This document shows, piece after piece, positions 4,873 to 43,311 of a DNA stretch of 43,311 nucleotides. Position 1 is the stretch's first letter, and each line of letters starts with the position of its first letter. The notes beneath the pieces are model-generated. The model saw only the letters and a program-made list of their open reading frames with translations. It had not been told where the DNA came from and searched no databases. The DNA comes from a virus. The position numbers were made by a program, and so were the translations under genes. The DNA lies in IMG/VR virus record IMGVR_UViG_3300038415_000060, positions 1 through 43,311 of that record. The stretch is one strand, 5' to 3'.

Positions 4873-5417
4873 TGCACGATACCGCCCGCATCAACGCCGA
4901 ACGCTTCTTCCACTCCTGCGTGCCCATCGGATTCCGCGGCACCATCGTCGAGGTTGGTTCCCGCGACATCAACGGCTCCCTTCGCGACCTCGCTCCCGCC
5001 GCAGCTACCTACATCGGCGTCGATACCGAGTTGGGCCTTGGCGTGGACGTGGTCGCAACGAATCCCTATTCCCTCCCGCTCCCCGACGCCCACGCCGACC
5101 TGGTGCTGTGTTCCTCCACACTGGAGCATTGCGAATTCCCATGGGCGCTGTTCCTCGAACTCTGCCGCATCGCCAAGCCCTCCGCCCTCATCTACTGCTG
5201 CGCCCCGTCCCAAGGCCCATTCCATCCCTGCCCCATCGACGCTTGGCGTTTCTACCCCGACTGTGCTGCCGCCCTTCAGCACTGGGCCCTGCTCCACGCC
5301 CAACCCGTCTCCCTCGTCCGTACCTACATCTCCATCTTCGACAATCCCGTCGACACCGAGTACCACGACGAATGGCGGGATTGGGTTGCCATCTACCGCA
5401 AGGAGACCGCCGCATGA
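4872..5417 (+). CDS. Class I SAM-dependent methyltransferase
   Basis: 181 residues. IVEVGSRDINGSL (from residue 25) is motif I, YIGVDTELGLGVDVV provides the acidic strand-2 residue, and DLVLCSSTLEH (about 76-86) is the Methyltransf_11-type motif after strand 4. The frame is open upstream, but ATG at 4872 overlaps the epimerase stop (TGATG) and matches the usual family start, so I chose it. It likely methylates a sugar or another small substrate in the surface-glycan pathway encoded around it. The target is not shown by the sequence. Confidence 0.85.
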   Translation: MHDTARINAERFFHSCVPIGFRGTIVEVGSRDINGSLRDLAPAAATYIGVDTELGLGVDVVATNPYSLPLPDAHADLVLCSSTLEHCEFPWALFLELCRIAKPSALIYCCAPSQGPFHPCPIDAWRFYPDCAAALQHWALLHAQPVSLVRTYISIFDNPVDTEYHDEWRDWVAIYRKETAA

Positions 5418-5794
5418 ACATCCTCATCCGCCGCGTCCGCCACTCCGACCAGCCCTACGCCACCGTCGGCTCATGGTCCTTCCCCGCCGACGACCGCCTT
5501 GTCATCCTCGTCTCCGACGTGCGCAACCCCGACGAGGAGTTCCTCATCGCCCTCCACGAACTCGTCGAAGCCTACCTCTGCCACAAGCACAACGTGAGCG
5601 ATGAGAGCGTGCAGGAGTTCGACATCGCCTACAACAAATCTGGTAAGCAGGGAGAACCGGGAGATGAGTCCGATGCGCCCTACCACCGCGAGCACGTCTA
5701 CGCCACCGCCGTCGAGCGCCTCGTCGCCGGCGAGCTTGGCGTCAAGTGGGCCGACCACGAGCACGCGGGAGACAACGCGGGAGACAACGAATGA
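5414..5794 (+). CDS. Phage protein with HELVE metal-binding-like motif
   Basis: 126 residues, starting MNILIRRVRHSDQPYATVGSW. The segment EFLIALHELVEAYLC (HELVE at 48-52) recurs in a small phage family I have seen annotated only as hypothetical. HExxE resembles the zinc site of metallopeptidases, but the third ligand is not obvious. A later HREHVYATAVERL helix could supply one. The protein overlaps both neighbours by 4 bases. Activity is unproven, and it could as well be a metal-binding structural fold. Confidence 0.75.
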   Translation: MNILIRRVRHSDQPYATVGSWSFPADDRLVILVSDVRNPDEEFLIALHELVEAYLCHKHNVSDESVQEFDIAYNKSGKQGEPGDESDAPYHREHVYATAVERLVAGELGVKWADHEHAGDNAGDNE

Positions 5795-6699
5795 GCATGA
5801 AGATCCTATTCCTATCACCGGCGCGTGGATGTGACTATCAGTGCGACTCCCTATTCCACGGCCTCCGCACCGCGTGGGGCGACTCCGTCGTCGACTACCC
5901 CCGCCTGCCCTACATGTACCAGGACTATGGTGACATGAAACATTTGTACGGCTACGGCTTCACCCTCTGGGGCCTGCTGCCCGACGACTCTGGCGTGGAT
6001 CGCACCGACATCGAAACCAAGATCGCCAACCGCTTCTACGACCTCATCGTCTTCGGCTCCATCTGCCGCGACCACTCCCTGCTCGACCTCGTGACCCTTC
6101 ACTATCCCCGCTACAAGGTCATCCTCGTCGATGGCGAGGACCAGCAGCACGGCATCTTCTCTCTGACCCGGCACGGAGTGTACTTCAAGCGCGAACTCGC
6201 CGCTCCCCACCCCGGTGTCTACCCCATCCACTTCGGCATCCCGCGCGAGAAAATCGGCACGCTCCGCCCGGTGATCAAGTCCCAAGTCCGCGCTCAGTCC
6301 GACCCGCGCGACATCCACACCTACATCTACACCTCGGAGCGCGACTACTACGCCGACTACGCCCGCTCCCTGTTCGCCATCACCATGAAGAAGGGTGGAT
6401 GGGACTGTATGCGCCACCTGGAGATTATGGCCAACGGCTGCATCCCACTGTTCCTCGACCTCGACCAGTGCCCCGCCACCACTTGCACCCATCTGCCCAA
6501 GGCGGAACTCGCGGAAGCCATGACCCACTTTGATAAAGATGGATCGTATTGGGACACCGACGACGGCCACGCCATCTGGCTCTCTTTATGGCGGCGGACG
6601 CACTTGAAGTTTGCCGCCCACTCGACCACCGAGCGCCTTGCCCAGTACGTCATCGACATGCAACAGCGCGAGGCTTCCCTCGCCGGAGGCAGTCAATGA
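5791..6699 (+). CDS. Glycosyltransferase-like protein (GT-B / exostosin-like)
   Basis: 302 residues. Begins MSMKILFLSPARGCDYQ, a Rossmann-like first strand. The C-terminal part has GGWDCMRHLEIMANGCIPLF (about 202-221), the typical donor-binding region of exostosin-like and GT-B enzymes, where a conserved acidic residue and a Gly-Cys-Ile-Pro turn contact the nucleotide sugar. It lies among sugar genes and overlaps the previous stop (ATGA). Probably a cytoplasmic enzyme modifying a glycan. Donor and acceptor are unknown. Confidence 0.75.
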   Translation: MSMKILFLSPARGCDYQCDSLFHGLRTAWGDSVVDYPRLPYMYQDYGDMKHLYGYGFTLWGLLPDDSGVDRTDIETKIANRFYDLIVFGSICRDHSLLDLVTLHYPRYKVILVDGEDQQHGIFSLTRHGVYFKRELAAPHPGVYPIHFGIPREKIGTLRPVIKSQVRAQSDPRDIHTYIYTSERDYYADYARSLFAITMKKGGWDCMRHLEIMANGCIPLFLDLDQCPATTCTHLPKAELAEAMTHFDKDGSYWDTDDGHAIWLSLWRRTHLKFAAHSTTERLAQYVIDMQQREASLAGGSQ

Positions 6700-6932
6700 C
6701 ACATCCCTCACCGCTTGCTACGTACAAATGCAGTCGGTGCCCACGAACTTACCTCGGGGCTCCGCAGTATCTGACTGTTCTGTCGATCGGCAGAGATAGT
6801 AAGATGCTGATCCAGTATCAACTCTGCGAGATGTGTTGGCAAACCATTGAAGCAATGCTGGATACCCCATCTCCGTATGTAAAAACTCCAAGGGAAATAG
6901 AACAGGAAAGGATGTTAGGCCATGAAGTATAA
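6696..6932 (+). CDS. Small zinc-ribbon-like protein
   Basis: 78 residues with two Cys pairs, KCSRC (C12, C15) and LCEMC (C44, C47), the spacing expected of a zinc ribbon or treble clef. The C-terminus is charged and probably helical (TPREIEQERM). ATG at 6696 overlaps the glycosyltransferase stop (ATGA). Base composition is lower in GC than the flanking sugar genes. Likely a nucleic-acid or protein-binding accessory protein. No specific function can be named. Confidence 0.75.
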   Translation: MTHPSPLATYKCSRCPRTYLGAPQYLTVLSIGRDSKMLIQYQLCEMCWQTIEAMLDTPSPYVKTPREIEQERMLGHEV

Positions 6933-7230
6933 CCCTAAACTCGTCGGCAAGTTGATATGCTTGGGGTGGGAGGATTCCCATGAAAACATGGGTAATGCGT
7001 GGAAAGATGATAGGGATATGCAAGAATATGTCGACTACGAAGTTGTCTGCATATCTGTTGGTTGGGTGACGGCAATTAACAAAGACCGGATTGTTTTAGC
7101 ATCTGATCTTAGTTCGAGTTCATATGTGAGTCGTGCCGAATATTGGGGAAGACTTACTACAATTCCTCTTTCTTGTGTACAACACATGGCGATCATCGCA
7201 ACCAAGAAAATGTATAGGTTATGGAAATGA
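6922..7230 (+). CDS. Hypothetical protein of lower GC
   Basis: 102 residues, starting MKYNPKLVGKLICLGW. The body alternates short hydrophobic strands (YEVVCISVGWVTAINKDRIV, SRAEYWGRLTTIPLSCV), suggesting a small beta-barrel. It overlaps the previous gene by 11 bases and the next by 10. Like its upstream neighbour it is AT-richer than the sugar genes. Function unknown. Confidence 0.7.
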   Translation: MKYNPKLVGKLICLGWEDSHENMGNAWKDDRDMQEYVDYEVVCISVGWVTAINKDRIVLASDLSSSSYVSRAEYWGRLTTIPLSCVQHMAIIATKKMYRLWK

Positions 7231-8096
7231 CCCGCCCCGCCCTCGACCTCGCCGCCCTCCGCCACCGCCACATCTTTATCGCCACCCCCCTCTACGCCAA
7301 CACCATGACCCTTGGCTACCACACTTCCTTCTGCAACCTGATGAAACTCTGCGCCAAGAACGGCATCTCCATGGGCGTCAAGTACATTGGCTGCGACTCC
7401 CTCGTCCCTCGCGCCCGCAACCGCCTCTACGCCTACTTCCGCCATTCTCCCGCCACCGACATCTTTTTCATCGACTCCGACATATCCTTCTCCGCCGAGG
7501 ACGTGCTCTCCCTCGTCCAGCGCCCTGAGCCCATCCTCGGCGGCGTCTACCCCCGGAAGCAGTTCGACTGGCCGCGCATTGCCGCCGCTGCCCGCGCCAA
7601 CATCCCTCCCGCTGAGTTGTCGCAGTATGGATTTATCCCCGTCTCCAACTGGGCCGGCCCCGGCGACTATTCCCTCTCCGACCCCATCCCCATGCACCAC
7701 CTCGGCACCGGCTTCCTCCGCATCCGCCGCGAGTGTCTCGACGACATCGTTCGCCAGCTCGGCGAGCAGATCCAGTTCGATTACTCCTCCGACGAATCCG
7801 TGTTCAAGGGAGAAATCGGCTACGACCTCTTCCCCTGCGGCCCCGATGTGCGCTACCCTGTAGGCAGCCGTGGCCGTCAATACCTCTCCGAGGATTGGGG
7901 ATTCTCCGAACTCGCCAAGCACTGCGGCTATACTCTCCACGCCGCGCCGTGGGTCTCGCTCACCCACTCCGGCTACTGCGACTACTTCGGCTCGCTTGAC
8001 ATCATGGACGCCGCCATCGAGGACGCATTGAACGCCGCTGCCCCTGTGATGAACGTTGCTCCGCCCGAGGAGGATACCCTTGCCTCGATACCTTAG
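7221..8096 (+). CDS. GT-A type glycosyltransferase
   Basis: 291 residues. Starts with an IFIATPLYAN strand, then RARNRLYAYF, and IFFIDSDISF (DSD at 85-87), the DxD motif that binds the divalent metal and nucleotide sugar in GT-A enzymes. GGVYPRKQ and HHLGTGFLRIRR follow as acceptor/donor loops, and LSEDWGFSELAK carries the ED-type base region. It is a full-length family member. With the epimerase and the other transferases it forms a glycan-modifying set. Codons are strongly C-ending. ATG at 7221 lies inside the end of the previous gene. Confidence 0.87.
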   Translation: MEMTRPALDLAALRHRHIFIATPLYANTMTLGYHTSFCNLMKLCAKNGISMGVKYIGCDSLVPRARNRLYAYFRHSPATDIFFIDSDISFSAEDVLSLVQRPEPILGGVYPRKQFDWPRIAAAARANIPPAELSQYGFIPVSNWAGPGDYSLSDPIPMHHLGTGFLRIRRECLDDIVRQLGEQIQFDYSSDESVFKGEIGYDLFPCGPDVRYPVGSRGRQYLSEDWGFSELAKHCGYTLHAAPWVSLTHSGYCDYFGSLDIMDAAIEDALNAAAPVMNVAPPEEDTLASIP

Positions 8097-9069: not shown

Positions 9070-9308
9070 CCACTCCACACAAATGGCTGCGACTGCGAAA
9101 GCAGCGTTGGCCCGACGCTCTCGACCCATCATGGCGCTATACCGTTACCGCCCTTCGCGACGACGGCTATGACTTCTATGGCCGAGGAGATACGGAGGAA
9201 TCTGCCCTCTTGGAATTGGATCGCCACTTGCAAGACGACCCTCCTCGATATTCCCCTAACCCTGATTCGCTACGCGAGTCTGAGGACATTCTGAATGTTC
9301 AACCTTGA
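9066..9308 (+). CDS. Small hypothetical protein before TerL (GTG start)
   Basis: 80 residues, starting MTTPHKWLRLRKQRWPD. GTG at 9066 overlaps the previous stop (GTGA) and has GGGAGCGAAG just upstream. Upstream in-frame codons exist, but they lie inside the preceding gene. The RYTVTALRDDGYDFYGRG segment, followed by ESALLELDRHL, looks like a compact alpha/beta domain. It overlaps the TerL start by 14 bases. No function assigned. Confidence 0.7.
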   Translation: MTTPHKWLRLRKQRWPDALDPSWRYTVTALRDDGYDFYGRGDTEESALLELDRHLQDDPPRYSPNPDSLRESEDILNVQP

Positions 9309-11100
9309 CCGCGCCGAGGAATTCCTTGCCCGCCTTCCCATCCGCGACAAGCTGACCCAGCGCCTCGTCCCGTTCGCCCTCAACCCCTCCCAGCGCAAAG
9401 TCCACACGGCCCTCAAGGCACAGCACGACAGGGGAAAGCCCATGCGAGTGGTTGTGCTGAAAGCGCGGCGGCAAGGTATTTCTACGTACACCGACAACAT
9501 GATGTGCGTTCACGCGATGGGGCGTCCCGGAACTAACTCTCTCATCACTACTCACGACTTTCGTTCGTCTAAGGAACTCTTTAAGAATCCCAAGACACTC
9601 ATCAACGAGTTTCTTCCCGGAAAGAAATCCTTGCGGTCTGTGTTAGGAATGCCTTCCATGACGCAACACAAGATAACATTTCCTCATACCGACGGAGATA
9701 GTTACCTTGCGATTGCGACAGCAGGAAACGTAGAAGGGGGCCGGGGAATGTCCCTCACTGACTTGCATTGCAGTGAAGCAGCATTCTACCCCGGACAGGG
9801 AACCTTCGCGGCGCTTCTGCCAACCGTCCCTCGTGCAGAAGATACAATGGTTGTGGTAGAGACTACTGCTAACGGCCGCACGGGGATCGGAGAAATCTTT
9901 TACGAGTTCTGGAACTCGTCTGTGCGCGGCGACACCGAGTTCACCGCCATCTTCCTCTCGTGGCTCATCGACCCAACCTGCGTCGACTACGACCACCCCG
10001 TCCCCGACGCGCCCAAGGACGACGACGAACGCCTGCTCATGGTCGAGGGCGTCAACATCGATGGCAAACTGGTGAGAGCTACCCCGCAGCAGATCGCATG
10101 GCGCCGTATGACCATCGACTCGCCCGCCTGCCGCGGATACGTCGAAATCTTCGACCAAGAGTTTCCGGTGATTCCGGATGTAGCGTTCCTCTCCACTGGC
10201 GAGCCCGCCTTCACCCGCGAGGAGATGGCCATGGCCCGCAACTCCATCCTCCCGGCCCGCCGCGTCGAAATCGCAGCCGAGTCCGGCGACTCCGCCTCGC
10301 ACATCTACTGCAAGCCCAACGACGTTTCCCCCGTCTTCCAGTGGGAGCCGCCAATCAAAGACCATCGCTACTACTTCGGCGTTGACGCCGCCAGGGGGAA
10401 GGATGAAGGAGACTTCGCGGCAATCGTTGGCATTGACGGAGACTCAGGTAACCAAGTTCTACGATACTCTCAGAGAGTCGATCCGGAATACTTGGCCCGC
10501 CTCTGCAATTACATCGGACTCTACTATAACCGCGGAATGCTTTGTATCGAACTTACAGGCAACCTTGGCCTGTGGTGCCAGTCCCGACTACGCGATTATT
10601 TCCATTACCCTAACCTCTACCGTTGGCGAGGCACGCGAGACGATAAGATTGCCCCTGGTGTTGGCGCAGGCAAGCGCGGCGGCTCCTACGGATGGGAAAC
10701 CACCTACCGCTCCCGCGAGCGCCTCCTGATCACCTTCCGCGAGTCCATCGTCCATCGCATGTGCTCCGTCCGTGACGAGGAAGTCGTGCGCCAGATGGAT
10801 CGTGCCACCCGCAAGGACGCTTGGGAGCGTTGGGAGATCGCCTACGGCCACGACGACGTTCTCATGGCCTTCATGCTGGCCAACGTCGCCCGCTCGGAGT
10901 GGCATCCGCGCGCGCTCACTGGCGCGTCTCACACCGTCACCTCCGACTCCGACTCCGACTCCCGCGCGCTGGCCAAACTCAACCCGCAACCTTCCTTCGA
11001 GCACATCGGCAACGTTAACGCTGCCGTCTACAAGCAACTCCTGCGCGACCGCGACCGCTACGACCGCGAGCAGGAAGCACAGAAACGAGGCTGGCGATGA
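9295..11100 (+). CDS. terL: Terminase large subunit
   Basis: 601 residues. The ATPase domain has KARRQGIST (56-64) as the Walker A variant of terminases, and a Walker B region SLTDLHCSEAAFY with E161 as catalytic carboxylate. The RNase H-like nuclease domain has FGVDAARGKDEGD (D364), CIELTGN (E419) and YGHDDVLMAF (H519-D521), the three acidic clusters that bind metal. It cuts concatemeric DNA and pumps it through the portal encoded about 1 kb downstream. A short serine-aspartate run (SDSDSDS) lies in the C-terminal tail. Length is normal for a phage TerL. Confidence 0.96.
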   Translation: MFNLDRAEEFLARLPIRDKLTQRLVPFALNPSQRKVHTALKAQHDRGKPMRVVVLKARRQGISTYTDNMMCVHAMGRPGTNSLITTHDFRSSKELFKNPKTLINEFLPGKKSLRSVLGMPSMTQHKITFPHTDGDSYLAIATAGNVEGGRGMSLTDLHCSEAAFYPGQGTFAALLPTVPRAEDTMVVVETTANGRTGIGEIFYEFWNSSVRGDTEFTAIFLSWLIDPTCVDYDHPVPDAPKDDDERLLMVEGVNIDGKLVRATPQQIAWRRMTIDSPACRGYVEIFDQEFPVIPDVAFLSTGEPAFTREEMAMARNSILPARRVEIAAESGDSASHIYCKPNDVSPVFQWEPPIKDHRYYFGVDAARGKDEGDFAAIVGIDGDSGNQVLRYSQRVDPEYLARLCNYIGLYYNRGMLCIELTGNLGLWCQSRLRDYFHYPNLYRWRGTRDDKIAPGVGAGKRGGSYGWETTYRSRERLLITFRESIVHRMCSVRDEEVVRQMDRATRKDAWERWEIAYGHDDVLMAFMLANVARSEWHPRALTGASHTVTSDSDSDSRALAKLNPQPSFEHIGNVNAAVYKQLLRDRDRYDREQEAQKRGWR

Positions 11101-11979: not shown

Positions 11980-12149
11980 GGAAATACATAGCATGGTCGA
12001 GTGGCGCAACCGATGATTCTTCTTGGTGTATTCGTGCGGGCAAGGGATTCGCGTATCGCTACTTCATTCGCCTTCAACTCCCCGCCATACGAAATCCTTA
12101 TAAATATCGCTGGTTCTGCATAGGATTCATTCGGGAGAGTGCCGCATGA
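11976..12149 (+). CDS. 57-residue basic aromatic protein
   Basis: 57 residues beginning MRKYIAWSSGATDDSSW and ending FCIGFIRESAA. It has many Tyr, Trp and Arg residues and a net positive charge. It is joined by ATGA overlaps to the gene before and to the portal start after. The sequence is more AT-rich than its neighbours. I do not recognise it. Perfect fit between two overlaps argues for translation. Confidence 0.6.
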   Translation: MRKYIAWSSGATDDSSWCIRAGKGFAYRYFIRLQLPAIRNPYKYRWFCIGFIRESAA

Positions 12150-13861
12150 GCACCACCACCTACACAGGCTCCTGGTCGAACCCTTCCGCCCGCGCCGTCG
12201 GCTCCGACGAACGCCCGACCATCATCCAGCAGATCGACCTGCTCCAGCGTATCGCCAAGGACGCCAAGCGCGATCTCCTCGGCGCCGACTGGTTCCGCAA
12301 CGTCAAGGATTTCTATTCTCTCGACGCCGCGCAGGGCGCTGGGCCGCTCGTCTTCCGGCCGCGTGTCGATATCCCTCAACTCCAGATGTTCATGCTCTCG
12401 GAGACGGCCGAACTCTCCGACAACGTCCCCGTCATCTACCTGACTGGCGACGACGACAAGCGCGATATTGCCCGCGAGCGCATCTTCCGCGGCATCTGGA
12501 AGCAGGAATGGTACTCCCTCTCCATCATGATGGCCCAACTCTGGGCCAACTTCGGCGGCACTGGCATCCTCGCCGCGGGCATTGACCCATTCGCCTACAA
12601 TGGGCGCGGCTCGGTCTGGCTCGACGCCATCGACCCCGACGACTTCGATCCCGATCCCACATCCCTCGACGAAAACTGGGACTACGTCGTCTACTCCCGC
12701 CCGATGACACTCGACGCCGTCCGCCGGCGCTGGCCTGACACTGGCTGGCGCGTCCCTGCCCGTCCATCCGCCCGCAACCCCGTCGGCGGCTCCGTCCCCT
12801 CGATGTCGATGCCCTTTGGCCCGATGACTTCCCAGGGCGGCGCACCTGCGTCCAAAGGCGTTCCTGCCTCCGGCCTTGTCAACGTTCGCTACTGCTATAC
12901 CCTCGACCCCACCCCGGAGAAAGTGAAGGACGCTGCGGGGTCGAAGGAACTCGATAAGTTCCTGCCCGCGTCTAAATTCAAACTAAGGTTTCCCAATGGC
13001 AGACTCACGATCGACGGCGACGGAACTATTCTCTACGACGGCGAAAATCCCACCCCGCATCGGAAGTTTCCTTTCATACCATATTGGGGTCTGCCAAAAT
13101 TGGAAGGTTTCTGGGCACCTCCTCCGATTCGTTACACGCGTACTCTACAGGAGTTTGCGGAACGTTCTCTCACACAAGCGTTCGAGAATGCCTACCGCTG
13201 TAATAACGGCATCTGGCTGCTTCCTGATGGTTCCGGATTGGATGCTGACAAATTCGGCGGCCTCCCCGGCGAAATCCAAGTCGTCAACATGAACCACGGC
13301 GAGCCGAAGTTCGTTTCCCCTAACGCTTTCCCTGCCTCTTACCTCGAATACATCAAGTACGCCTTGGCGACCCAAGCCGAACTCCAAGGCTACTCGGGTG
13401 CGCGCGGCGGGCAACCCGGAGCTGGCAACCTCAGTGTGGAGTTGTACGAATCCGCCATCGAGGAATCCTCGAAACTGACCAAGCTCCGCGCCCGCCTCTC
13501 CGCGCGATCGACCCAGAAGGCCGCCGAGATGGTCTTCTACCTCCTCGCCAAATTCTTCGGCGAGCGGCGCGGCATCAAGTTCCCCACCATGGACGATGGC
13601 AACTTCTCCATGTCCGAGTGGTCGCCCATCTCCGACTTCTCCGCGTGGAACGTCATGGTTGACCCTGGCTCGCTCGAAGTCATGTCGGCGAAGAACCTGC
13701 GGAAGACGGCGCTGGCGCTCAACCAGGCAGGCAAGATCGACACGCGCACCATGCTCACCGCCCTCGGCTGGCCAGGCGCGGATGAGATCGCGGAGAAGGC
13801 TGACCAGGAAGCGGCGATGCGTGTTCTGCAAACCATCAAGAAAGGAAGGACGGTAAAATGA
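12146..13861 (+). CDS. Portal protein
   Basis: 571 residues, the usual size for a phage portal. It follows TerL and precedes the scaffold and capsid genes. Typical features are a helical N-terminus, the LMLSETAELSDN-like region near residue 75 (here MLSETAELSDNVPV), a central beta-rich wing with DPDDFDPDP, and a long C-terminal helix region (SIEESS-type, here YESAIEESSKLTKLRARLS). Twelve copies would form the ring through which DNA enters and to which the tail attaches. The assignment relies on context and general resemblance to short-tailed phage portals. Confidence 0.87.
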   Translation: MSTTTYTGSWSNPSARAVGSDERPTIIQQIDLLQRIAKDAKRDLLGADWFRNVKDFYSLDAAQGAGPLVFRPRVDIPQLQMFMLSETAELSDNVPVIYLTGDDDKRDIARERIFRGIWKQEWYSLSIMMAQLWANFGGTGILAAGIDPFAYNGRGSVWLDAIDPDDFDPDPTSLDENWDYVVYSRPMTLDAVRRRWPDTGWRVPARPSARNPVGGSVPSMSMPFGPMTSQGGAPASKGVPASGLVNVRYCYTLDPTPEKVKDAAGSKELDKFLPASKFKLRFPNGRLTIDGDGTILYDGENPTPHRKFPFIPYWGLPKLEGFWAPPPIRYTRTLQEFAERSLTQAFENAYRCNNGIWLLPDGSGLDADKFGGLPGEIQVVNMNHGEPKFVSPNAFPASYLEYIKYALATQAELQGYSGARGGQPGAGNLSVELYESAIEESSKLTKLRARLSARSTQKAAEMVFYLLAKFFGERRGIKFPTMDDGNFSMSEWSPISDFSAWNVMVDPGSLEVMSAKNLRKTALALNQAGKIDTRTMLTALGWPGADEIAEKADQEAAMRVLQTIKKGRTVK

Positions 13862-13923
13862 AACGCACAAGCGACGGTTATTCTCGCAAGAAAGGCTCAC
13901 GCAAGCGCGGAGGCAAGTCCTAG
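13858..13923 (+). CDS. 21-residue basic micropeptide
   Basis: ATG at 13858 overlaps the portal stop (ATGA). The product starts MKRTSDGY and continues SRKKGSRKRGGKS, with ten Lys/Arg in 21 residues. GGAAGGACGG precedes the start. Such a composition suggests binding to DNA or RNA. It resembles in character the J packaging peptide of microviruses, without sequence identity implied. Two more short basic ORFs follow within 1.2 kb. Too small for standard gene callers. Confidence 0.55.
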   Translation: MKRTSDGYSRKKGSRKRGGKS

Positions 13924-13925
13924 CA

Positions 13926-14240
13926 ATGACTCTAGCCCTCGACCACGCCGAATCCTGCGCCGCCCTTGCCGACTGGCGCTCTCCCTGCTCCTGTGGTGTG
14001 GGGATTGAGACAATATCCATACCCATCATCAAGGTTTCCGCTGAGTACATCTCCATCCCCAAATTGTTGTTCGCGCTTAATCTCGTCCCCTCCGTCTCCG
14101 AAGCCCGGCGGCTCATCTCTCAGAACGCCGTCGAGATTGTTGACGGAGACGACCGGCACACCGCCGCGTTGAAGGAATGGTTGCCGAAGAAGTTCAAGCT
14201 GCGCTGTGGGCGCGAGTGGCGGGAGGTATCTTTCCAATGA
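13926..14240 (+). CDS. S4-like RNA-binding domain protein
   Basis: 104 residues. Residues about 46-80 (KLLFALNLVPSVSEARRLI, then SQNAVEIVDGDD) follow the S4 pattern seen at the C-terminus of tyrosyl-tRNA synthetase and in ribosomal S4 and pseudouridine synthases: helix, P-S-x-S-E-A-R-R-L-I, short turn, then strand with V-x-I-x-D-G. S4 domains bind structured RNA. A CSCG pair lies in the N-terminal part. GGAGG lies 11 bases before ATG at 13926. An RNA-binding protein directly behind the portal is unexpected. Its target is not known. Confidence 0.75.
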   Translation: MTLALDHAESCAALADWRSPCSCGVGIETISIPIIKVSAEYISIPKLLFALNLVPSVSEARRLISQNAVEIVDGDDRHTAALKEWLPKKFKLRCGREWREVSFQ

Positions 14241-14446
14241 GCACAGCCATCACCCCGCTCGCTCCCATCCCGCCTTGGGTGCTCGATCCATCTACTCGCT
14301 GGCTCACGGTCGGCGACGCTTCCCGCGTGTGGAACAAGCACCGCAACACCATCCGCGAGTGGTGCGAGTCGGGATTCTTCGCGTCCATCAACGTTCCCAC
14401 CTACCGCGATCCGCACGGACGCTGGTACGTTCGCGCAATAATGTAA
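14237..14446 (+). CDS. Helix-turn-helix (excisionase/MerR-like) protein
   Basis: 69 residues from ATG at 14237, which overlaps the previous stop (ATGA). WLTVGDASRVWNKHRNTIRE (from residue 22) fits a winged helix-turn-helix of the excisionase/MerR type: V-x-x-A, then x-x-T-I-R-x-W as recognition helix (REW at 40-42), followed by a PTYRDPHGRWYV wing. Such small proteins act as recombination directionality factors or repressors, or occasionally as small terminases. No integrase is visible in the window. The role here is open. Confidence 0.7.
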   Translation: MSTAITPLAPIPPWVLDPSTRWLTVGDASRVWNKHRNTIREWCESGFFASINVPTYRDPHGRWYVRAIM

Positions 14447-14508
14447 TCGCACAGTCCGCACACGACCTATCTTCCACCATACAATCATTCGATTATTCTG
14501 TACGCGAG

Positions 14509-14757
14509 ATGACGATTCAGGGCCACACGGTCGAAATCCTGCGCTCGGGTACAGACTACGAGGATTGGCGTCTTGGCCTGCAACTGGCCATTGACGGTCG
14601 CGTTGCGACGATGTTCGATCTTCACAAGTCGAAAATCCGCGAAGTGGGAGACGGCTCGCCCGCCTACGAGGAGTTGCTGTACGATTCCGCTTCCTCCCTC
14701 CTCGCCCAGTGCGGGCCGGTTTCCGCCGGCGTTCCCTTGGCTGCGTCACCTCGCTGA
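14509..14757 (+). CDS. Small hypothetical protein
   Basis: 82 residues, starting MTIQGHTVEILRSG. An alpha/beta pattern (TDYEDWRLGLQLAIDGRVATM) is followed by a helix (YEELLYDSASSLLAQC). The start lies 62 bases after the previous gene and has only a weak GCGAG before it. The frame is open further upstream without another good start codon. Not recognised. Codon use resembles neighbours. Confidence 0.55.
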   Translation: MTIQGHTVEILRSGTDYEDWRLGLQLAIDGRVATMFDLHKSKIREVGDGSPAYEELLYDSASSLLAQCGPVSAGVPLAASPR

Positions 14758-14825
14758 ATCGGTATAGCTCTTGCCCTCACGGGCGATTTGAGCGCCACTT
14801 CGAGTGACGCAGAAGGAGGTACGAT

Positions 14826-14867
14826 ATGGCTCGCAGACACAAGAAAGGCCGTGGCCGCAAGAAATAG
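14826..14867 (+). CDS. 13-residue basic micropeptide
   Basis: A complete ORF encoding MARRHKKGRGRKK: nine Lys/Arg and one His in 13 residues. AAGGAGGT at 14813-14820 is a near-perfect Shine-Dalgarno with five bases of spacing, much stronger than for many true genes here. That is the main reason to call it. The surrounding 14758-14969 holds no other gene. Likely nucleic-acid binding. It may also be a leader peptide controlling the following hairpin. Confidence 0.5.
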   Translation: MARRHKKGRGRKK

Positions 14868-14906
14868 TTTCGGCCAACGACAGTAGTGTTCCTCCGCAGC
14901 ACGGAC

Positions 14907-14939
14907 GGGGGAGCGGCGTCTAGGGCCCGTCGCTCCTCC
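14907..14939. ncRNA. Strong RNA hairpin between micropeptide genes
   Basis: GGGGGAGCGGCG (14907-14918) pairs with CGTCGCTCCTCC (14928-14939) over 12 pairs, with two G-T wobbles and a 9-base loop. No T tract follows (ATTTGCAC), so it is not a standard intrinsic terminator. It sits in the non-coding stretch 14868-14969, between the 13-residue peptide and the next gene. It could be an attenuator, an RNase processing site or a binding site for the nearby S4 protein. Typed as ncRNA only because it is an RNA structure. Confidence 0.5.
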
Positions 14940-14969
14940 ATTTGCACATCGGCCTTGGAGGATTACCGT

Positions 14970-15101
14970 ATGAGAGATCCACGCATGAAGGGCGTTGAAT
15001 CCGCCCAACCCGGCTTCGCGGCGCTGAAGAAGGGTGCAAAGCGCAAGTCCGAGAAACGCTCTCAGCGCAAGTCGGGGCGTCGGCACAGTTCGAAACACTA
15101 A
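14970..15101 (+). CDS. 43-residue protein with strongly basic tail
   Basis: From ATG at 14970, with GGAGG eight bases upstream. The frame is open further upstream, but those codons cross the hairpin and have no ribosome site. The first 20 residues are neutral (MRDPRMKGVESAQPGFAAL). The tail KKGAKRKSEKRSQRKSGRR is almost all Lys/Arg/Ser. Likely nucleic-acid binding. It lies between portal and scaffold genes with two other basic peptides. Confidence 0.65.
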   Translation: MRDPRMKGVESAQPGFAALKKGAKRKSEKRSQRKSGRRHSSKH

Positions 15102-17134: not shown

Positions 17135-18160
17135 ATGGCTGGCGGCGTATACGGAACCGGAATCAACGCACCCCCTGCGGTGCTCGCAAACACCATGCAG
17201 GCCATCACCCAGAAAGCCATCGAGCCGGTCCTCGCCGACAACGTGATGAACCCGTCCTCGACCTTCTGGGCACTGTGCCGCAAAGGAAAAGTCTTCAAGG
17301 GCGGCGAACTCATCTACCCACTGCTGTTCGTCGAGGAATTGACGGGTGGCGCCTACGTCGGCGCGCAGCTCCTGAACACAACCGTCACCGACTCGATCCA
17401 GTCGGCGAACCAAGTCTGGCGCGACTACTACGAGGCGATCTCGATTCCCGTGACTGACGTGATTCGCAACGCAGGCTCCGGCTTGGACATCATCCAGATG
17501 AAGGTTGAGGCCGCATCCTCGTCCTTCCTCCAGAAGCTGTCGCGTGCACTGTGGCACACCACGCCGCAGAACACGGCCAACGACATCGACGACATCGAGT
17601 CTTGGATTGGCTCGGGCACTCCCGCCGCGCCGACTGGCACTGGCATTGCCACCAACGTGATTGCGGGCATCGACCGCTCCGTCGCCGCGAACTCGTTCTG
17701 GCAGCCGCCCACGCCGCAGTCCACCACCGCCACGGCCATTACCGCGCTGATCATGGACACTGCTTACGCCACCGTGAAGCTGGGCTACGACGAGCCGGAC
17801 CTGATCCTCAGCGACCGTACTCGCTACGTTAACTTCAAGGCGAACTTCATGGGCGCGGGCACTTCCTACATGGCGCGCTACGGCGACAACATGCAGGACC
17901 GGGAAGCGATCCAGTCCGGATTCCGCTACCACTTCCTGTTCAACAGCGCCGTCGTGCTGGACGACCCATTCATCGCGGCGAACATTTTCTACATTCTCAA
18001 CACGAAGTACATTCACCCGGTATTCCACCCTGGATCGTACTTCCGTCTCACGCCGTGGCTGCGTCCCACGAACCAGGACGTAATCACCGCGCAGATGTTC
18101 CTGACGTGGCAGCTCGAATGCCTGGCGCCACGCATGGGCATCAAGGTACTCAGCTCGTAA
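17135..18160 (+). CDS. Major capsid protein (HK97-like)
   Basis: 341 residues with AAAGGAGAACTACC before the ATG. The N-terminal region is helical (VLANTMQAITQKAIEPVLAD). The IYPLLFVEELTGGAYVGAQ and YYEAISIPVTDVIRN segments match the E-loop and spine regions of podovirus coat proteins. A later DEPDLILSDRTRYVNFK is a typical P-domain helix, and the end MGIKVLSS is a beta strand. It should form the icosahedral shell. No delta domain or protease gene is visible, in keeping with a separate scaffold. Confidence 0.85.
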   Translation: MAGGVYGTGINAPPAVLANTMQAITQKAIEPVLADNVMNPSSTFWALCRKGKVFKGGELIYPLLFVEELTGGAYVGAQLLNTTVTDSIQSANQVWRDYYEAISIPVTDVIRNAGSGLDIIQMKVEAASSSFLQKLSRALWHTTPQNTANDIDDIESWIGSGTPAAPTGTGIATNVIAGIDRSVAANSFWQPPTPQSTTATAITALIMDTAYATVKLGYDEPDLILSDRTRYVNFKANFMGAGTSYMARYGDNMQDREAIQSGFRYHFLFNSAVVLDDPFIAANIFYILNTKYIHPVFHPGSYFRLTPWLRPTNQDVITAQMFLTWQLECLAPRMGIKVLSS

Positions 18161-18245: not shown

Positions 18246-18644
18246 ATGGCGTTTCAAACCAGCATCGCGCAGTGGCTAAAGAGCAGTGGAGGCTGCCCCA
18301 TCAATCTCCAGTTGCTGAACCAAAACGGCAACACGGCGATTGTCGTTCCAGCTTCCGGCTCATTCTGGCCAGGGCTGCCGCGTGCTGGCTATATCCGTAT
18401 CAAGTCCTCCACCGTCGGCACGAATTGCCAGTCGAAGGTCGGCATCATCACCATGACCGACCTCAGCGGAACGAACATTGCCAACATCTACACTGGCGAC
18501 CGCCACTACTCGGCCAACGGCCAGTACATCGACCAGGCATTCTTCTTCTGCTACGACTGGGGGATTGCGAACCTCGCGCTCAACGTTTGGACGTTCAACA
18601 GCAACGCATCAACCTACGACATCGAAGTGGTAGGCATGGAATAA
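18246..18644 (+). CDS. Virion-region protein, paralogue 1
   Basis: 132 residues, starting MAFQTSIAQWLKSSGG. It is clearly homologous to the next gene: both share MAFQ-SIAQWL, PRAGYIRIKS, NIANIY-GD and a Tyr-Asp-Val/Ile-Glu end. All-beta composition suggests a capsid decoration, head-fibre or tail protein present on the particle. It begins 85 bases after the capsid gene, with only a weak GGGGA before the ATG. That spacer shows no other feature. Confidence 0.75.
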   Translation: MAFQTSIAQWLKSSGGCPINLQLLNQNGNTAIVVPASGSFWPGLPRAGYIRIKSSTVGTNCQSKVGIITMTDLSGTNIANIYTGDRHYSANGQYIDQAFFFCYDWGIANLALNVWTFNSNASTYDIEVVGME

Positions 18645-18666: not shown

Positions 18667-19077
18667 ATGGCTTTTCAGAACTCAATCGCACAGTGGCTAT
18701 CGGCAGACGGAATTCCGGTCGTCTACTATTCCAACATCAACCTGAACAACAACGTGGCCGTCAAGCTCCCCGTGTCGGGCGGATTCGGCACCGCGCCCAA
18801 CTCCTTGATCAAGCCGCGCGCGGGATACGTTCGCATCAAGTCGAACATCATCAACAAGAACGCGACCGTGCTGGTGGGAGGCATCCAAGCCGGAGATGGC
18901 GTGGCCAACATCGCCAACATCTACGTCGGTGACGCTGGCGCTTCCGCCAACGGCCAGTTCTACGACGCCACGTTCTTCTTCTGGTTCGATTGGGGCGTTG
19001 CCAACATCAACATTGTCAACATCGCCACGACTGTCAACACGGCGACCTACGACGTTGAATTGGCGGGAATACAGTAG
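18667..19077 (+). CDS. Virion-region protein, paralogue 2
   Basis: 136 residues, a diverged tandem copy of the preceding protein. Both contain NIANIYVGD / NIANIYTGD and FFFWFDWGVAN / FFFCYDWGIAN. AAAGGAGACGACT precedes the ATG. Probably made in quantity as a capsid-surface or tail component, as for the first copy. A hairpin terminator candidate follows the stop. Confidence 0.75.
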   Translation: MAFQNSIAQWLSADGIPVVYYSNINLNNNVAVKLPVSGGFGTAPNSLIKPRAGYVRIKSNIINKNATVLVGGIQAGDGVANIANIYVGDAGASANGQFYDATFFFWFDWGVANINIVNIATTVNTATYDVELAGIQ

Positions 19078-37001: not shown

Positions 37002-38773
37002 TGCCAAATAAACAGGGCACAATCACGGTCACCGATGACGATCTGGCTCCGGCATCTCCGATAGGGGGACAACCCACGCCGGAGGAGCCAACTACTCCGT
37101 TTATCAATTTCTTGCAACACGCCGCGCCTCCTGAGAAATCGGGGCCTCCGGGATCTGCCGACTTCCTTAATCGGGAGTTGAACGCATTCGGAGACACTTT
37201 GTTAGGTGCGCCGGAAAGTGTTGCTAGTTCGTTTTCGCAATCGCCTACGCCAGAGGAGCGCAAGGAGTTCCGTCTCCCAGAGCAGCCAGGATTCCTCAAC
37301 AAAATGGGACTAGGGTTAGCGCGGAATGTGGGATTGCCCTTCCAAAATGCCGCAGAGTGGTACAAGCGAGAATATGAGCTACACAAGAAAGGGCAGCAGC
37401 CTGCGAGCGCCACATTGGATAAGTTACTGGAGTCGGCCCCCGAAGGATTGGGGTCAGCGGGGGCTACAACAATTTTAGGTAAAGTGGGAGAAGAAGCTCC
37501 AGGGAGGATAGGCAAGGTTCCGGCAGCGACACGCATTATTTCTCAAGAGATGATGGGCGCGGGCAAGGAGCCTGTGTTGCAGGCACGGATCGCCTACGAG
37601 CAAGCACTGAAGGATTTCCGCGAAGCGACCGCCGAGAAAAAGTCGGAGTACGCAAGCAAGGTAGCCGACGCCCGTCGTGAATGGGTGAGTAAGGCGATGG
37701 AAGCCAAGCGCGGACAGGCGGAGGCGGCCGCAAACAAGTCCAAGCGGGAAACGCTGAGGCGCGGGCAGGAATCCTATACTGAGCGGCTACAAAAGAATAT
37801 TAAGCAGACATTCGACACGACGAAGGCGCGGCTGGATGCACGTTGGATGAAACTTCGCTCTACGCCGATCAAGCGCGGAGCCTCGCTCACTATTCTCAAG
37901 GACGAGCCACTGAACTCGAAAGCAATCGCAGATACGGTGGATTTTGCGGAGAAGAAGTATCTGCAAGGCGCACCGGAGTCGATCAAGCAGTTCCGTGACC
38001 TAATGAATTGGATGCGGGAGGATACCGGCGGCGCATCTGCGTCGATGGTGGACGAGGCTGGCGGAGAGAAGCCTGCGCTGAGGCCGATCACTTGGGATGA
38101 GGCTCGCACGCACTACTCCGCGCTCGGTGATCGCATGTTCAGTGGAGATCTTCCCAGCAATGTTTTTCGAGCTATCGACCATGTCCGTAATGGGATGGAT
38201 TCTGAAGGCAAGCCACTACCGGGAACACTTGGAGGGCAACTCAAGGCTGGCGCGGGACGTGCTGGAGTGCTCCCAGAATACGAGTCCGTGATGCGTGACT
38301 GGAGTAGTTTTGAGTCTGACTGGAAGGACATGTCCTCCGTCACTCGGGGTGGGGGAAGCCCCTTGGCGGTTGCGTTGAAAGCCCCATCGCCAGAAACGTT
38401 GATGCCGCAGGTAACGGGGCGCACTGGCAACCTACTTATTGAGCGGTTGGCGAAGTACAGGGATCAGGGTGGATCACCAACCACAGCCGCAGCGATTAGA
38501 CGGTTGCAGAGGGAAATTGATGCTGTGCCAAAGACGAAGGCACCAGCGTCGCCGGATGCACTAAAACTTCCTCCAGAACCAAAGTTAGGAAAGCCTCCGA
38601 AAGTCCCCGATCCAGTCGCAATCCGGCGCAACAATCTAATCTCCGCCGCTGGCAGGAAAGTCGGGTGGATGGATTTGATCCCTCCTTACCTCGTAGAACA
38701 CATGGCAGTCAAAAGTCCCGCCATCCGCGAGTGGATTGCTCGGCAGCCAAGGGAGGAGACGAAGGTGCCATGA
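37001..38773 (+). CDS. Large helical probable internal virion protein
   Basis: 590 residues; ATG overlaps the previous stop by one base (TAATG). An N-terminal polar Pro-rich part is followed by long charged helices at about 190-285 (LKDFREATAEKKSEYASKVA and on) typical of coiled coils, then a mixed region and a Pro/Lys-rich end. No transglycosylase motif could be seen. With the previous two genes it probably makes the internal core or DNA-ejection apparatus. The stop overlaps the next gene (ATGA). Confidence 0.6.
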   Translation: MPNKQGTITVTDDDLAPASPIGGQPTPEEPTTPFINFLQHAAPPEKSGPPGSADFLNRELNAFGDTLLGAPESVASSFSQSPTPEERKEFRLPEQPGFLNKMGLGLARNVGLPFQNAAEWYKREYELHKKGQQPASATLDKLLESAPEGLGSAGATTILGKVGEEAPGRIGKVPAATRIISQEMMGAGKEPVLQARIAYEQALKDFREATAEKKSEYASKVADARREWVSKAMEAKRGQAEAAANKSKRETLRRGQESYTERLQKNIKQTFDTTKARLDARWMKLRSTPIKRGASLTILKDEPLNSKAIADTVDFAEKKYLQGAPESIKQFRDLMNWMREDTGGASASMVDEAGGEKPALRPITWDEARTHYSALGDRMFSGDLPSNVFRAIDHVRNGMDSEGKPLPGTLGGQLKAGAGRAGVLPEYESVMRDWSSFESDWKDMSSVTRGGGSPLAVALKAPSPETLMPQVTGRTGNLLIERLAKYRDQGGSPTTAAAIRRLQREIDAVPKTKAPASPDALKLPPEPKLGKPPKVPDPVAIRRNNLISAAGRKVGWMDLIPPYLVEHMAVKSPAIREWIARQPREETKVP

Positions 38774-38949
38774 CCCGTCACAAGCGCAAGGATCGCGTCT
38801 CGAAGAAAATCTCCATCCTGCGCCATGAGGGCGTACCGCAGGAGCAAGCCGTCGCCGAGTCGTTGTCGATGAAGCGCGCTGGGCGGCTGACCAAGTCCGG
38901 CGGGTACAGGCGCGTCAAGAAACATTCTCGCAGAAGGAGCACCAAATGA
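38770..38949 (+). CDS. 59-residue basic phage protein
   Basis: Starts MTRHKRKDRVSKKISILRHE. A central pattern ISILRHEGVPQEQAVAES, then SMKRAGRLTKSGGYRRVKK, resembles a common class of small basic phage proteins (helix, Gly-x-Pro-x-x-x-A, then RAGRL) whose role is unknown. Very Lys/Arg-rich at both ends. Overlaps its neighbours by 4 bases on each side (ATGA). A fourth basic peptide in the window, together with those at 13.9-15.1 kb. Confidence 0.75.
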   Translation: MTRHKRKDRVSKKISILRHEGVPQEQAVAESLSMKRAGRLTKSGGYRRVKKHSRRRSTK

Positions 38950-42144: not shown

Positions 42145-42337
42145 GGGCCACCTCTTTCTTTACTCGACCCTCATCGATGTCCACCACTGGAGCGATCCAG
42201 GTGGGAATGCCGGGAGGATCGGATTTGAGTTCAGCACGAAACTGGCGGGCCGGGACGATGGGGGCGCCGAGCAGCCGACGCAGGCGGGAGTTGACGCCAT
42301 CGATCATCGTCTCATCGCGATAATGCAGGAAATCCAC
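42131..42337 (-). CDS. Small hypothetical protein (GTG start)
   Basis: 68 residues from GTG at 42337. The start is set by AAGGAGG six bases upstream on the minus strand, located inside the end of the polymerase gene. Begins MDFLHYRDETMIDGVNSRL. Basic and mixed in structure, with no membrane segment. Overlaps both neighbours (26 bases with polymerase, 14 with the Ig-like gene). Function unknown. Confidence 0.65.
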   Translation of the reverse strand: MDFLHYRDETMIDGVNSRLRRLLGAPIVPARQFRAELKSDPPGIPTWIAPVVDIDEGRVKKEVALARR

Positions 42338-43311
42338 AGGCAGCCTCCTTCATGTCGGACAGGTTGGGGCCAACCTTGCACTCGGTCGCGCACCACAGAC
42401 CGTCGGGCGCGACAATGGGATGCCGCAGCAGGGGTTCCGGGGCCTCGATCACCGGCCGCATCTCGGACAGGTGCTCCTCTAGCATAGCATGGGGGAAGCA
42501 GAACCACCAAGCGTCGTGGACTTCGTTGCATAGGCCGTACTTGGAGTCGAGGCCGAGGCGCGCGAATTCCTTCTTCTTCTGCCGCATCACGCCGAATGCG
42601 AGGTTGGCGGGCAGGAAGGCCACCGCTTCCTCCGCCTGGTCGCCGTTGCGGTATTGCGACGTTTTGTAGTCCCAGACGAAGACCTCGTAGAAGCGGCGGA
42701 TGTGACCAAACGGTGATCGAAGAAATTGCTGCTCGTGAGCGAGCTGGCGCACCTTACGCTGCCACTCAAAGACACGGGGGAAGAGATTCTGAAGAAGATC
42801 GAGAAATCCTTTTGCAACTTTCTCACCTGCAAAGTGTTCGAGATTTTCCTGATACAACCTTCGAGCTCCCATGCCAAATCCCACTCCAAGTATCGAAGGC
42901 TTGGCTTGCTTATCTCTGACACGTTTGCGATCAGGGTCACTTCTGAACCATCGGAACCTCTCCATGAGCTCGACATCGTCTTCCTCCATGATCTGCGGCG
43001 TCCAACATTTGAGAAAGCATCCCGCCACGAACGAGTGCATGTCCAGCCGCGCCATCCGCATGTAGGACGCGTCTTCCGCGCAGAAGCCGGTGGTGAGGAC
43101 GTGGAACGCTTTGTAGTCCCATTTGGTGATGATGTGGCCGTCAGGAGCGGCGAACACGCGCTTGACGGCTTCGGCGAGCCGGGAGTGCTCGGGGATGTTC
43201 TGCACGTTCGGGTTGCGGGAAGTGAGTTGCCCGGTGGCGGTGTCGAAGGTGAAGGTCGTGTGCACGCGCCCGTCGGCATGGGGCCGGAAGCCTTCGATGT
43301 ACGTCCCACGC
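42312..43311 (-). CDS. DNA polymerase A, C-terminal part (5' partial)
   Basis: The frame is open to the right edge. The visible 333 codons cover the palm and fingers of a family A polymerase: TATGQLTSRNPNVQNIP, motif A WDYKAFHV (D at 43118-43116), motif B DKQAKPSILGVGFGMG (K at about 42902-42900) and motif C EVHDAWWF (HD at about 42515). It would replicate the phage genome. Compared with E. coli Pol I, the motif A glutamate is His, the O-helix Phe is Leu and its Tyr is Phe, and motif C has HDA rather than HDE. Both metal-binding aspartates are kept, so it is probably active. Exonuclease domains lie outside the window. Confidence 0.9.
   Translation of the reverse strand, partial: RGTYIEGFRPHADGRVHTTFTFDTATGQLTSRNPNVQNIPEHSRLAEAVKRVFAAPDGHIITKWDYKAFHVLTTGFCAEDASYMRMARLDMHSFVAGCFLKCWTPQIMEEDDVELMERFRWFRSDPDRKRVRDKQAKPSILGVGFGMGARRLYQENLEHFAGEKVAKGFLDLLQNLFPRVFEWQRKVRQLAHEQQFLRSPFGHIRRFYEVFVWDYKTSQYRNGDQAEEAVAFLPANLAFGVMRQKKKEFARLGLDSKYGLCNEVHDAWWFCFPHAMLEEHLSEMRPVIEAPEPLLRHPIVAPDGLWCATECKVGPNLSDMKEAACGFPALSR

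Follow-up and report, generated by a model that had tools for sequence, protein, structure and literature searches.

What are the very short, lysine- and arginine-rich open reading frames (ORFs) that lie in the head-assembly region of a tailed phage, and how might their expression be set? The question is raised by IMG/VR virus record IMGVR_UViG_3300038415_000060, whose 43,311 bases were analysed whole (hereafter the window), and which codes for a terminase (9295-11100), a P22-like portal (12146-13861) and a major head protein (17135-18160). Between the portal gene and a gene labelled scaffold from its position (it has no profile match), three such ORFs of 21, 13 and 43 codons, here called micro1, micro2 and micro3, are present where an earlier note on this DNA had placed them. 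We find that micro2 and micro3 are conserved at the codon level, that basic micropeptide genes recur at the same place throughout a family of phages, and that the start sites of these genes are, in many lineages, predicted to be folded. The RNA described here is cis-acting, lying at the peptides' own start sites, and was absent from the earlier note.

Codon-level conservation of micro2 and micro3

Micro2 (14826-14867, + strand) encodes the 13 residues MARRHKKGRGRKK, and its Shine-Dalgarno (SD) sequence, AAGGAGGT (14813-14820, + strand), stands 5 nt from the start codon; micro3 (14970-15101, + strand) encodes 43 residues and has the SD GGAGG (14957-14961, + strand) at a spacing of 8 nt. The near-ideal ribosome site and the GGAGG that the earlier note had read for these two ORFs are thus both confirmed.

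Close relatives were gathered by an IMG/VR search with the portal, which returned 12 contigs at 83-89% identity and one weak match, and by a profile search that added a further relative, L091, at 48% identity. Homologues of micro2 are found in the close clade as peptides of 13-26 residues (for example MARKRGRKKSHKR and MLNQFEVRNRGRKGRRRSHKK), mostly behind an AAGGAGG-type site, while micro3 has homologues at 60-74% identity in close relatives; L091 has a peptide of each kind, in unchanged order. An additional peptide of 15-17 residues, such as MARRRRKQSRRRGDKTY, is encoded by some relatives. In L084, about 2.5 kb with other genes (5058-7552) separates the portal from the homologue of the 82-residue protein encoded upstream of micro2, and the micro2 RNA element and the peptides stay together downstream.

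The window was also compared with L088 (the same contig as L009). The 13 residues of micro2 are identical in the two, although the genes differ by 12 synonymous changes (over 8.7 sites); none is nonsynonymous (over 27.3 sites). By our own arithmetic, which takes about three quarters of changes to be protein-changing and ignores mutation bias, the chance of no nonsynonymous change in twelve is ~4e-8. For micro3, 19 differences are synonymous (over 29.5 sites) and 22 are nonsynonymous (over 96.5 sites), which gives a ratio of ~0.35. An aggregate ratio of nonsynonymous to synonymous change (pN/pS) for the short peptides came to 0.54, but mixes non-homologous peptides of equal length, and we relied on specific pairs alone. 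On these sequence comparisons, micro2 is under purifying selection at the codon level.

Basic micropeptides across the family

Aligned capsids from the close clade led to distant IMG/VR contigs, and a broader capsid alignment to 144, of which 80 were retained; removal of redundancy left 76 loci, the window among them. Each of the first distant contigs examined had a basic peptide of 13-24 residues with a good ribosome site between the portal gene and the gene that precedes the capsid gene. The larger set has one to four basic peptides per phage, some as short as 11 residues, with an overall range of 11-47.

Under a strict filter, basic SD-bearing ORFs were found in this gap at 67 of the 76 loci. 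Their density was 0.94 per kb in the gap, as against 0.026 per kb elsewhere on the same strand, 0.0019 per kb on the other strand and 0.0076 per kb in shuffled gaps. A relaxed filter (11-32 residues with a ribosome site), set after the strict misses had been viewed, was positive at 74 of 76 loci, compared with 4 of 76 when that gap was read antisense and with 10 of 56 in a downstream control; of the two filters, the strict one, with 67 of 76, gives the less biased count. The earlier note was right that basic micropeptides cluster among head-assembly genes, and the trait is one of the whole phage family.

Across 145 distinct peptides, Lys and Arg make up 42% of residues and 103 peptides end in one or the other. 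The last residue is Tyr in 18 (internal Tyr, 0.4%) and Tyr or Trp in 21, so that a C-terminal Tyr is possibly a docking end. Up to four different micropeptides each occur in one clade (L134-L148, L153, L154, L160-L162, L165, L168, L174, L176, L186 and others). Among these micropeptides, which are encoded upstream of the capsid gene, is a 22-33-residue type with ARMTKKVDRRVGK; the conserved GCGCAAGACAGG segment in front of it is possibly a third RNA motif.

Folded start sites across the family

The upstream sequences were read first, and it was from these that folding of the SD was suspected. An unselected search for SD-closing pseudoknots gave p<=0.05 for 21.6% of genes of <=27 residues, compared with 4.4% of those of 28-50 residues and 3.6% of other genes. 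In 22 lineages, picked by eye after the structures had been seen, an H-type pseudoknot ends just before the SD or covers it, with a first stem (S1) of 6-12 bp whose sequence differs between lineages. MAFFT could not align the pseudoknot arms over all lineages, and a swap control was used instead: S1 arms paired with their own partners at a mean of -15.6 kcal/mol and with partners swapped between lineages at -9.5 kcal/mol, a comparison among members of that one set.

A second motif is found in another large clade: there a GGCCUUCGCGCC hairpin has a loop that pairs with the SD, and compensatory changes are present. In the loci, nearly every occurrence of the motif CTGGCCTTCGCGCC is followed by a micropeptide gene, and P1, the stem flanking the motif, changes in sequence and keeps its pairing (7 of 7 pairs changed on both sides). 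In a 13-sequence alignment of the second motif, 84.9% of cells were paired compared with 70.6% in shuffles, and the covariation score was 0.353 as against 0.133 (0 of 500 shuffles); a control slid by +1 came close on some measures, which we attribute to rows with a one-base-shorter spacer. The helix between loop and SD was paired in 100% of cells, and in L135 and L172, where the SD changes from GCGAAGGAGG to GCGAAAGAGG, the loop is altered correspondingly. A scan of 2.9 million IMG/VR viral contigs for this motif returned 13 matches, some on contigs already among the loci and the new ones behaving alike, 12 of which lead into a basic micropeptide of 13-20 residues; in the remaining one, L195, neither ATG nor GTG is present at the expected spot.

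Stable hairpins on the 3' side (z below -2) follow 35% of short-peptide genes compared with 7% of others, and a U-run after the micropeptide hairpin is seen in only a few relatives. A search of the window and nine relatives against Rfam 15 gave nothing relevant, its only match being a tRNA in L108, where a tRNA gene (6147-6239) adjoins the micropeptide region. Taken together, we consider it very probable that across the family a gate operates at the start sites of these genes.

Start-site folds in the window

For the window itself such a gate is a somewhat favoured reading. Stem S1 upstream of micro2 would form between a 5' arm, CUGCGUCAC (14741-14749, + strand), in the last codons of the gene for an 82-residue protein, and a 3' arm, GUGACGCAG (14804-14812, + strand), whose last base immediately precedes the micro2 SD. 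The 82-residue protein (14509-14757, + strand) has no assigned function and was matched in relatives by tblastn and alignment. Since the 5' arm lies inside its last codons, a ribosome finishing that gene would open S1. Nine base pairs are possible between the arms, the pseudoknot test gave p=0.02 in the window and 0.01 in L088, and the plain fold at the micro2 start had z-scores of -2.3 and -3.1, respectively. Within the element, an inner hairpin (14767-14793, + strand), with GCUC and GAGC enclosing a variable hairpin, folds in all 9 aligned close relatives despite differing inner sequences. An alternative local hairpin, TGAGCGCCAC-N(2-10)-GTGACGC (14789-14810, + strand), is invariant in the close clade; as a wider DNA marker, the TGAGCGCCAC-GTGACGC pattern was rejected, its 68 stretches being mostly chance and real in the close clade only.

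At micro3, the SD is predicted to pair with an anti-SD segment, UUCCUCC (14889-14895, + strand). The helix test gave p=0.08 in the window and p=0 of 60 shuffles in L088, where the anti-SD segment begins at the micro2 stop codon and the fold has a z-score of -5.5. A strong hairpin with no U-run is predicted after micro2 (14907-14939, + strand), and on the window's + strand this region yielded no call of an intrinsic terminator or a sigma-70 promoter.

What the peptides may do, and rival explanations

The extreme charge of the peptides, their fixed place and the purifying selection on them suggest that their partner, as the head is assembled, is a polyanion. The explanation we prefer, and hold with about even confidence, is that micro2 and micro3 are real micropeptides that bind nucleic acid in head assembly and whose synthesis is limited by a start-site fold. 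We infer that the peptides are translated and are present in the procapsid or virion, where they would bind the genome at the portal or in the procapsid interior, or else phage RNA, in a manner resembling microvirus J or adenovirus mu. The two roles put forward in the earlier note, DNA condensation in the manner of microvirus J and RNA binding, are both possible. The folded ribosome-binding site would throttle their synthesis, with a stem reaching the SD, and the SD or its neighbour paired, so that the fold must open first. The likeliest triggers would be a ribosome finishing the adjacent upstream gene (translational coupling) or a lack of peptide bound to the fold, an autogenous repression of the kind seen with T4 gp32. 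A more far-reaching form of this proposal, which we regard as tentative and on balance doubtful, is that head assembly or genome packaging in a large, uncultured family of tailed soil phages requires sets of polycationic peptides of 11-47 residues, each dosed by a start-site pseudoknot that is opened or closed by the peptide or by the upstream ribosome.

Several observations count against this explanation. At the micro2 start in the window the helix-only test was not significant (p=0.75), S1 shows no covariation in the close clade, its sequence being nearly fixed there, L007 is without the 5' arm, and the micro2 SD lies beside the S1 helix and not strongly within it. Across the family, ~78% of short-peptide genes are individually above p<=0.05 in the pseudoknot test, and two of the 76 loci, L158 and L185, have no detectable basic micropeptide. 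Beyond their basic composition the peptides vary so greatly in sequence from clade to clade that, between distant ones, homology can be claimed from place and composition alone. Finally, by our own arithmetic, the charge of the peptides at any plausible copy number would neutralise no more than a few per cent of a genome of 43-55 kb, which makes bulk condensation of the DNA unlikely.

Of the rivals, the one that survives best, though we judge it unlikely, is that the peptides serve as assembly glue, bridging acidic faces of scaffold, capsid or portal as the procapsid is built, and do not bind nucleic acid. The scaffold of P22, whose basic C-terminal domain binds coat protein, provides a model. 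The position of the genes between portal and putative scaffold is in keeping with such a role, as are the C-terminal Tyr in a subset of peptides and the slightly acidic composition of the window's putative scaffold (37 K+R compared with 41 D+E); a content of 42% Arg and Lys together with low sequence conservation, however, suits a polyanion better than a protein surface.

Rather less probable is a role for the peptides as regulators of the late operon, in which Arg-rich RNA binders would recognise the pseudoknots in cis or in trans. The arginine-rich motifs of lambda N and of Tat of bovine immunodeficiency virus (BIV) are models for such binding, which the peptides match in length and Arg content, and the RNA elements are located at those very genes. 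Set against this, the RNA elements are wholly different from one clade to the next, yet the peptides remain generically basic.

Less probable again is that the short ORFs are leader peptides, the act of translation regulating a downstream gene by stalling or by attenuation at the following hairpin. Their architecture is what such a leader would have, a short ORF with a strong SD and then a strong hairpin, and in the L088 fold the partner of the micro3 SD is a segment adjoining the end of micro2. Attenuation is nonetheless made less likely by the folding of the short ORFs' own SDs and by the absence of terminators, with most hairpins lacking a U-run and, on the window's + strand, none called as a terminator. 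It also sits poorly with up to four different peptides in one phage, with the conservation by micro2 of amino acids and not codons, and with the variation of the peptides in length and C-terminus. The weakest alternative, that these are chance basic ORFs with accidental SDs in GC-rich DNA, may apply to the non-conserved micro1 but is very improbable overall and is refuted for micro2 and micro3 by a 36- to 500-fold enrichment over controls and by their codon-level conservation.

Comparison with known systems

The C-terminal tail of the microvirus J protein docks into coat protein. J of phiX174 is small, basic, internal to the capsid and involved in DNA packaging (PMC11945456), and coats replicative DNA at ~120 copies (PMC13386984). 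It is the closest model for the behaviour that we propose. The likeness is that of short basic proteins encoded with structural genes (here 11-47 residues, 42% K+R, between the portal and capsid genes). The present peptides differ in that they belong to a tailed double-stranded DNA (dsDNA) phage with a P22-like portal, go down to 11 residues, number one to four per genome and are only candidate components of the virion. Membership of the J or VP8 families, which belong to single-stranded DNA microviruses with an F-type capsid, is excluded by the P22-like portal, the terminase and the major head protein of tailed-phage type. The core peptide mu (pX) of adenovirus is likewise very short and Arg-rich and is found in a dsDNA virus; it differs in being cut from a precursor by a protease and in belonging to a eukaryotic virus.

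The SAM-II and preQ1 riboswitches close the SD with an H-type pseudoknot, as is predicted here, but differ from the present elements, which have no Rfam match and, in the 22-lineage pseudoknot group, no invariant aptamer-like core. An intrinsic terminator after the short ORF, as in leader-peptide attenuators, was not found on the + strand of the window. The autogenous pseudoknot of T4 gene 32 is a nucleation site that lies 5' of a less structured SD region (PMC535899). Shared with it is a pseudoknot upstream of the start of a gene for a nucleic-acid-binding protein (here a putative one); in the present elements, by contrast, the SD or its edge is within the fold, and the repressor is only proposed. 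A pseudoknot at the translation start, as in gene 32, is found across the family and, in the window, at p=0.02 with no covariation. A short literature search, incomplete in coverage, found no description of such peptides or folds, a weak sign of novelty.

Neighbouring genes and relatives

Micro1 (13858-13923, + strand; 21 residues, MKRTSDGYSRKKGSRKRGGKS) has the SD AAGGA and a start that overlaps the portal stop. It has no homologue in any relative examined, so that it appears to be lineage-specific and only a candidate gene. The 104-residue protein that follows (13926-14240, + strand) is S4-like, scoring 20.2 bits against Pfam S4, under the cut-off of 22.8 bits; it had no tblastn match in close relatives and none in IMG/VR at the sensitivity used. 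As it is present in the window only, the S4 protein was ruled out as a component of the system. Next comes a 69-residue protein (14237-14446, + strand) with an excisionase-like helix-turn-helix (HTH), the Pfam score for HTH_17 being just over the cut-off, which is conserved in the close clade. In a search of PHROG profiles micro1 and micro3 were unmatched; micro2, at 13 residues, falls under the 20-residue limit and so lay outside that search. The earlier note had seen in the ORFs, the S4 protein and the HTH protein a nucleic-acid-binding island, and had named conservation of start, stop and charge in relatives as the test of the ORFs. Micro2 and micro3 show that conservation and micro1 does not; the HTH protein holds its place in the close clade while the S4 protein and micro1 are confined to the window, and the island, on this comparison of genomes, is partly accidental.

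Elsewhere in the window, two related tandem proteins (18246-18644 and 18667-19077) right after the major head protein, matched at the same places in relatives, are probably duplicated decoration or head genes. A basic protein of ~59 residues, MTRHKRKDRVSKKISILRHEGVPQEQAVAESLSMKRAGRLTKSGGYRRVKKHSRRRSTK (38770-38949), lies outside the region reported here, its start overlapping the end of a 590-residue gene. At the end of the record, an ORF on the minus strand (42312-43265), opposite to the structural genes, resembles part of a family A DNA polymerase.

A search of GTDB genomes found no relative and hence no host. Searches of INPHARED with the portal and capsid, and with a capsid and a portal taken from relatives, gave only remote capsid matches at ~25% identity, to Mx8, Mx9, BUCT555, a Ruegeria phage and a few others. 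Scans of Mx9 and BUCT555 found no comparable peptide cluster, and in Mx8 the gene before p46 adjoins it with no gap. As far as these searches reach, no cultured phage or host genome is close enough to transfer data from.

Implications

These data indicate that genes of 11-20 codons, under the usual length for gene callers, can be near-universal in a phage family. The folds at the start sites appear to make up several RNA families that are undescribed and linked to micropeptide genes, and the combination GGCCUUCGCGCC ... GCGAAGGAGG offers a ready marker by which such genes are findable by their RNA instead of their protein; L158 and L185 are useful natural exceptions. We know of no set of polycationic head-assembly or packaging peptides as a component of tailed phages. 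Should the head prove to contain the peptides, J-like packaging peptides would be in use among tailed dsDNA phages, unlike the textbook picture.

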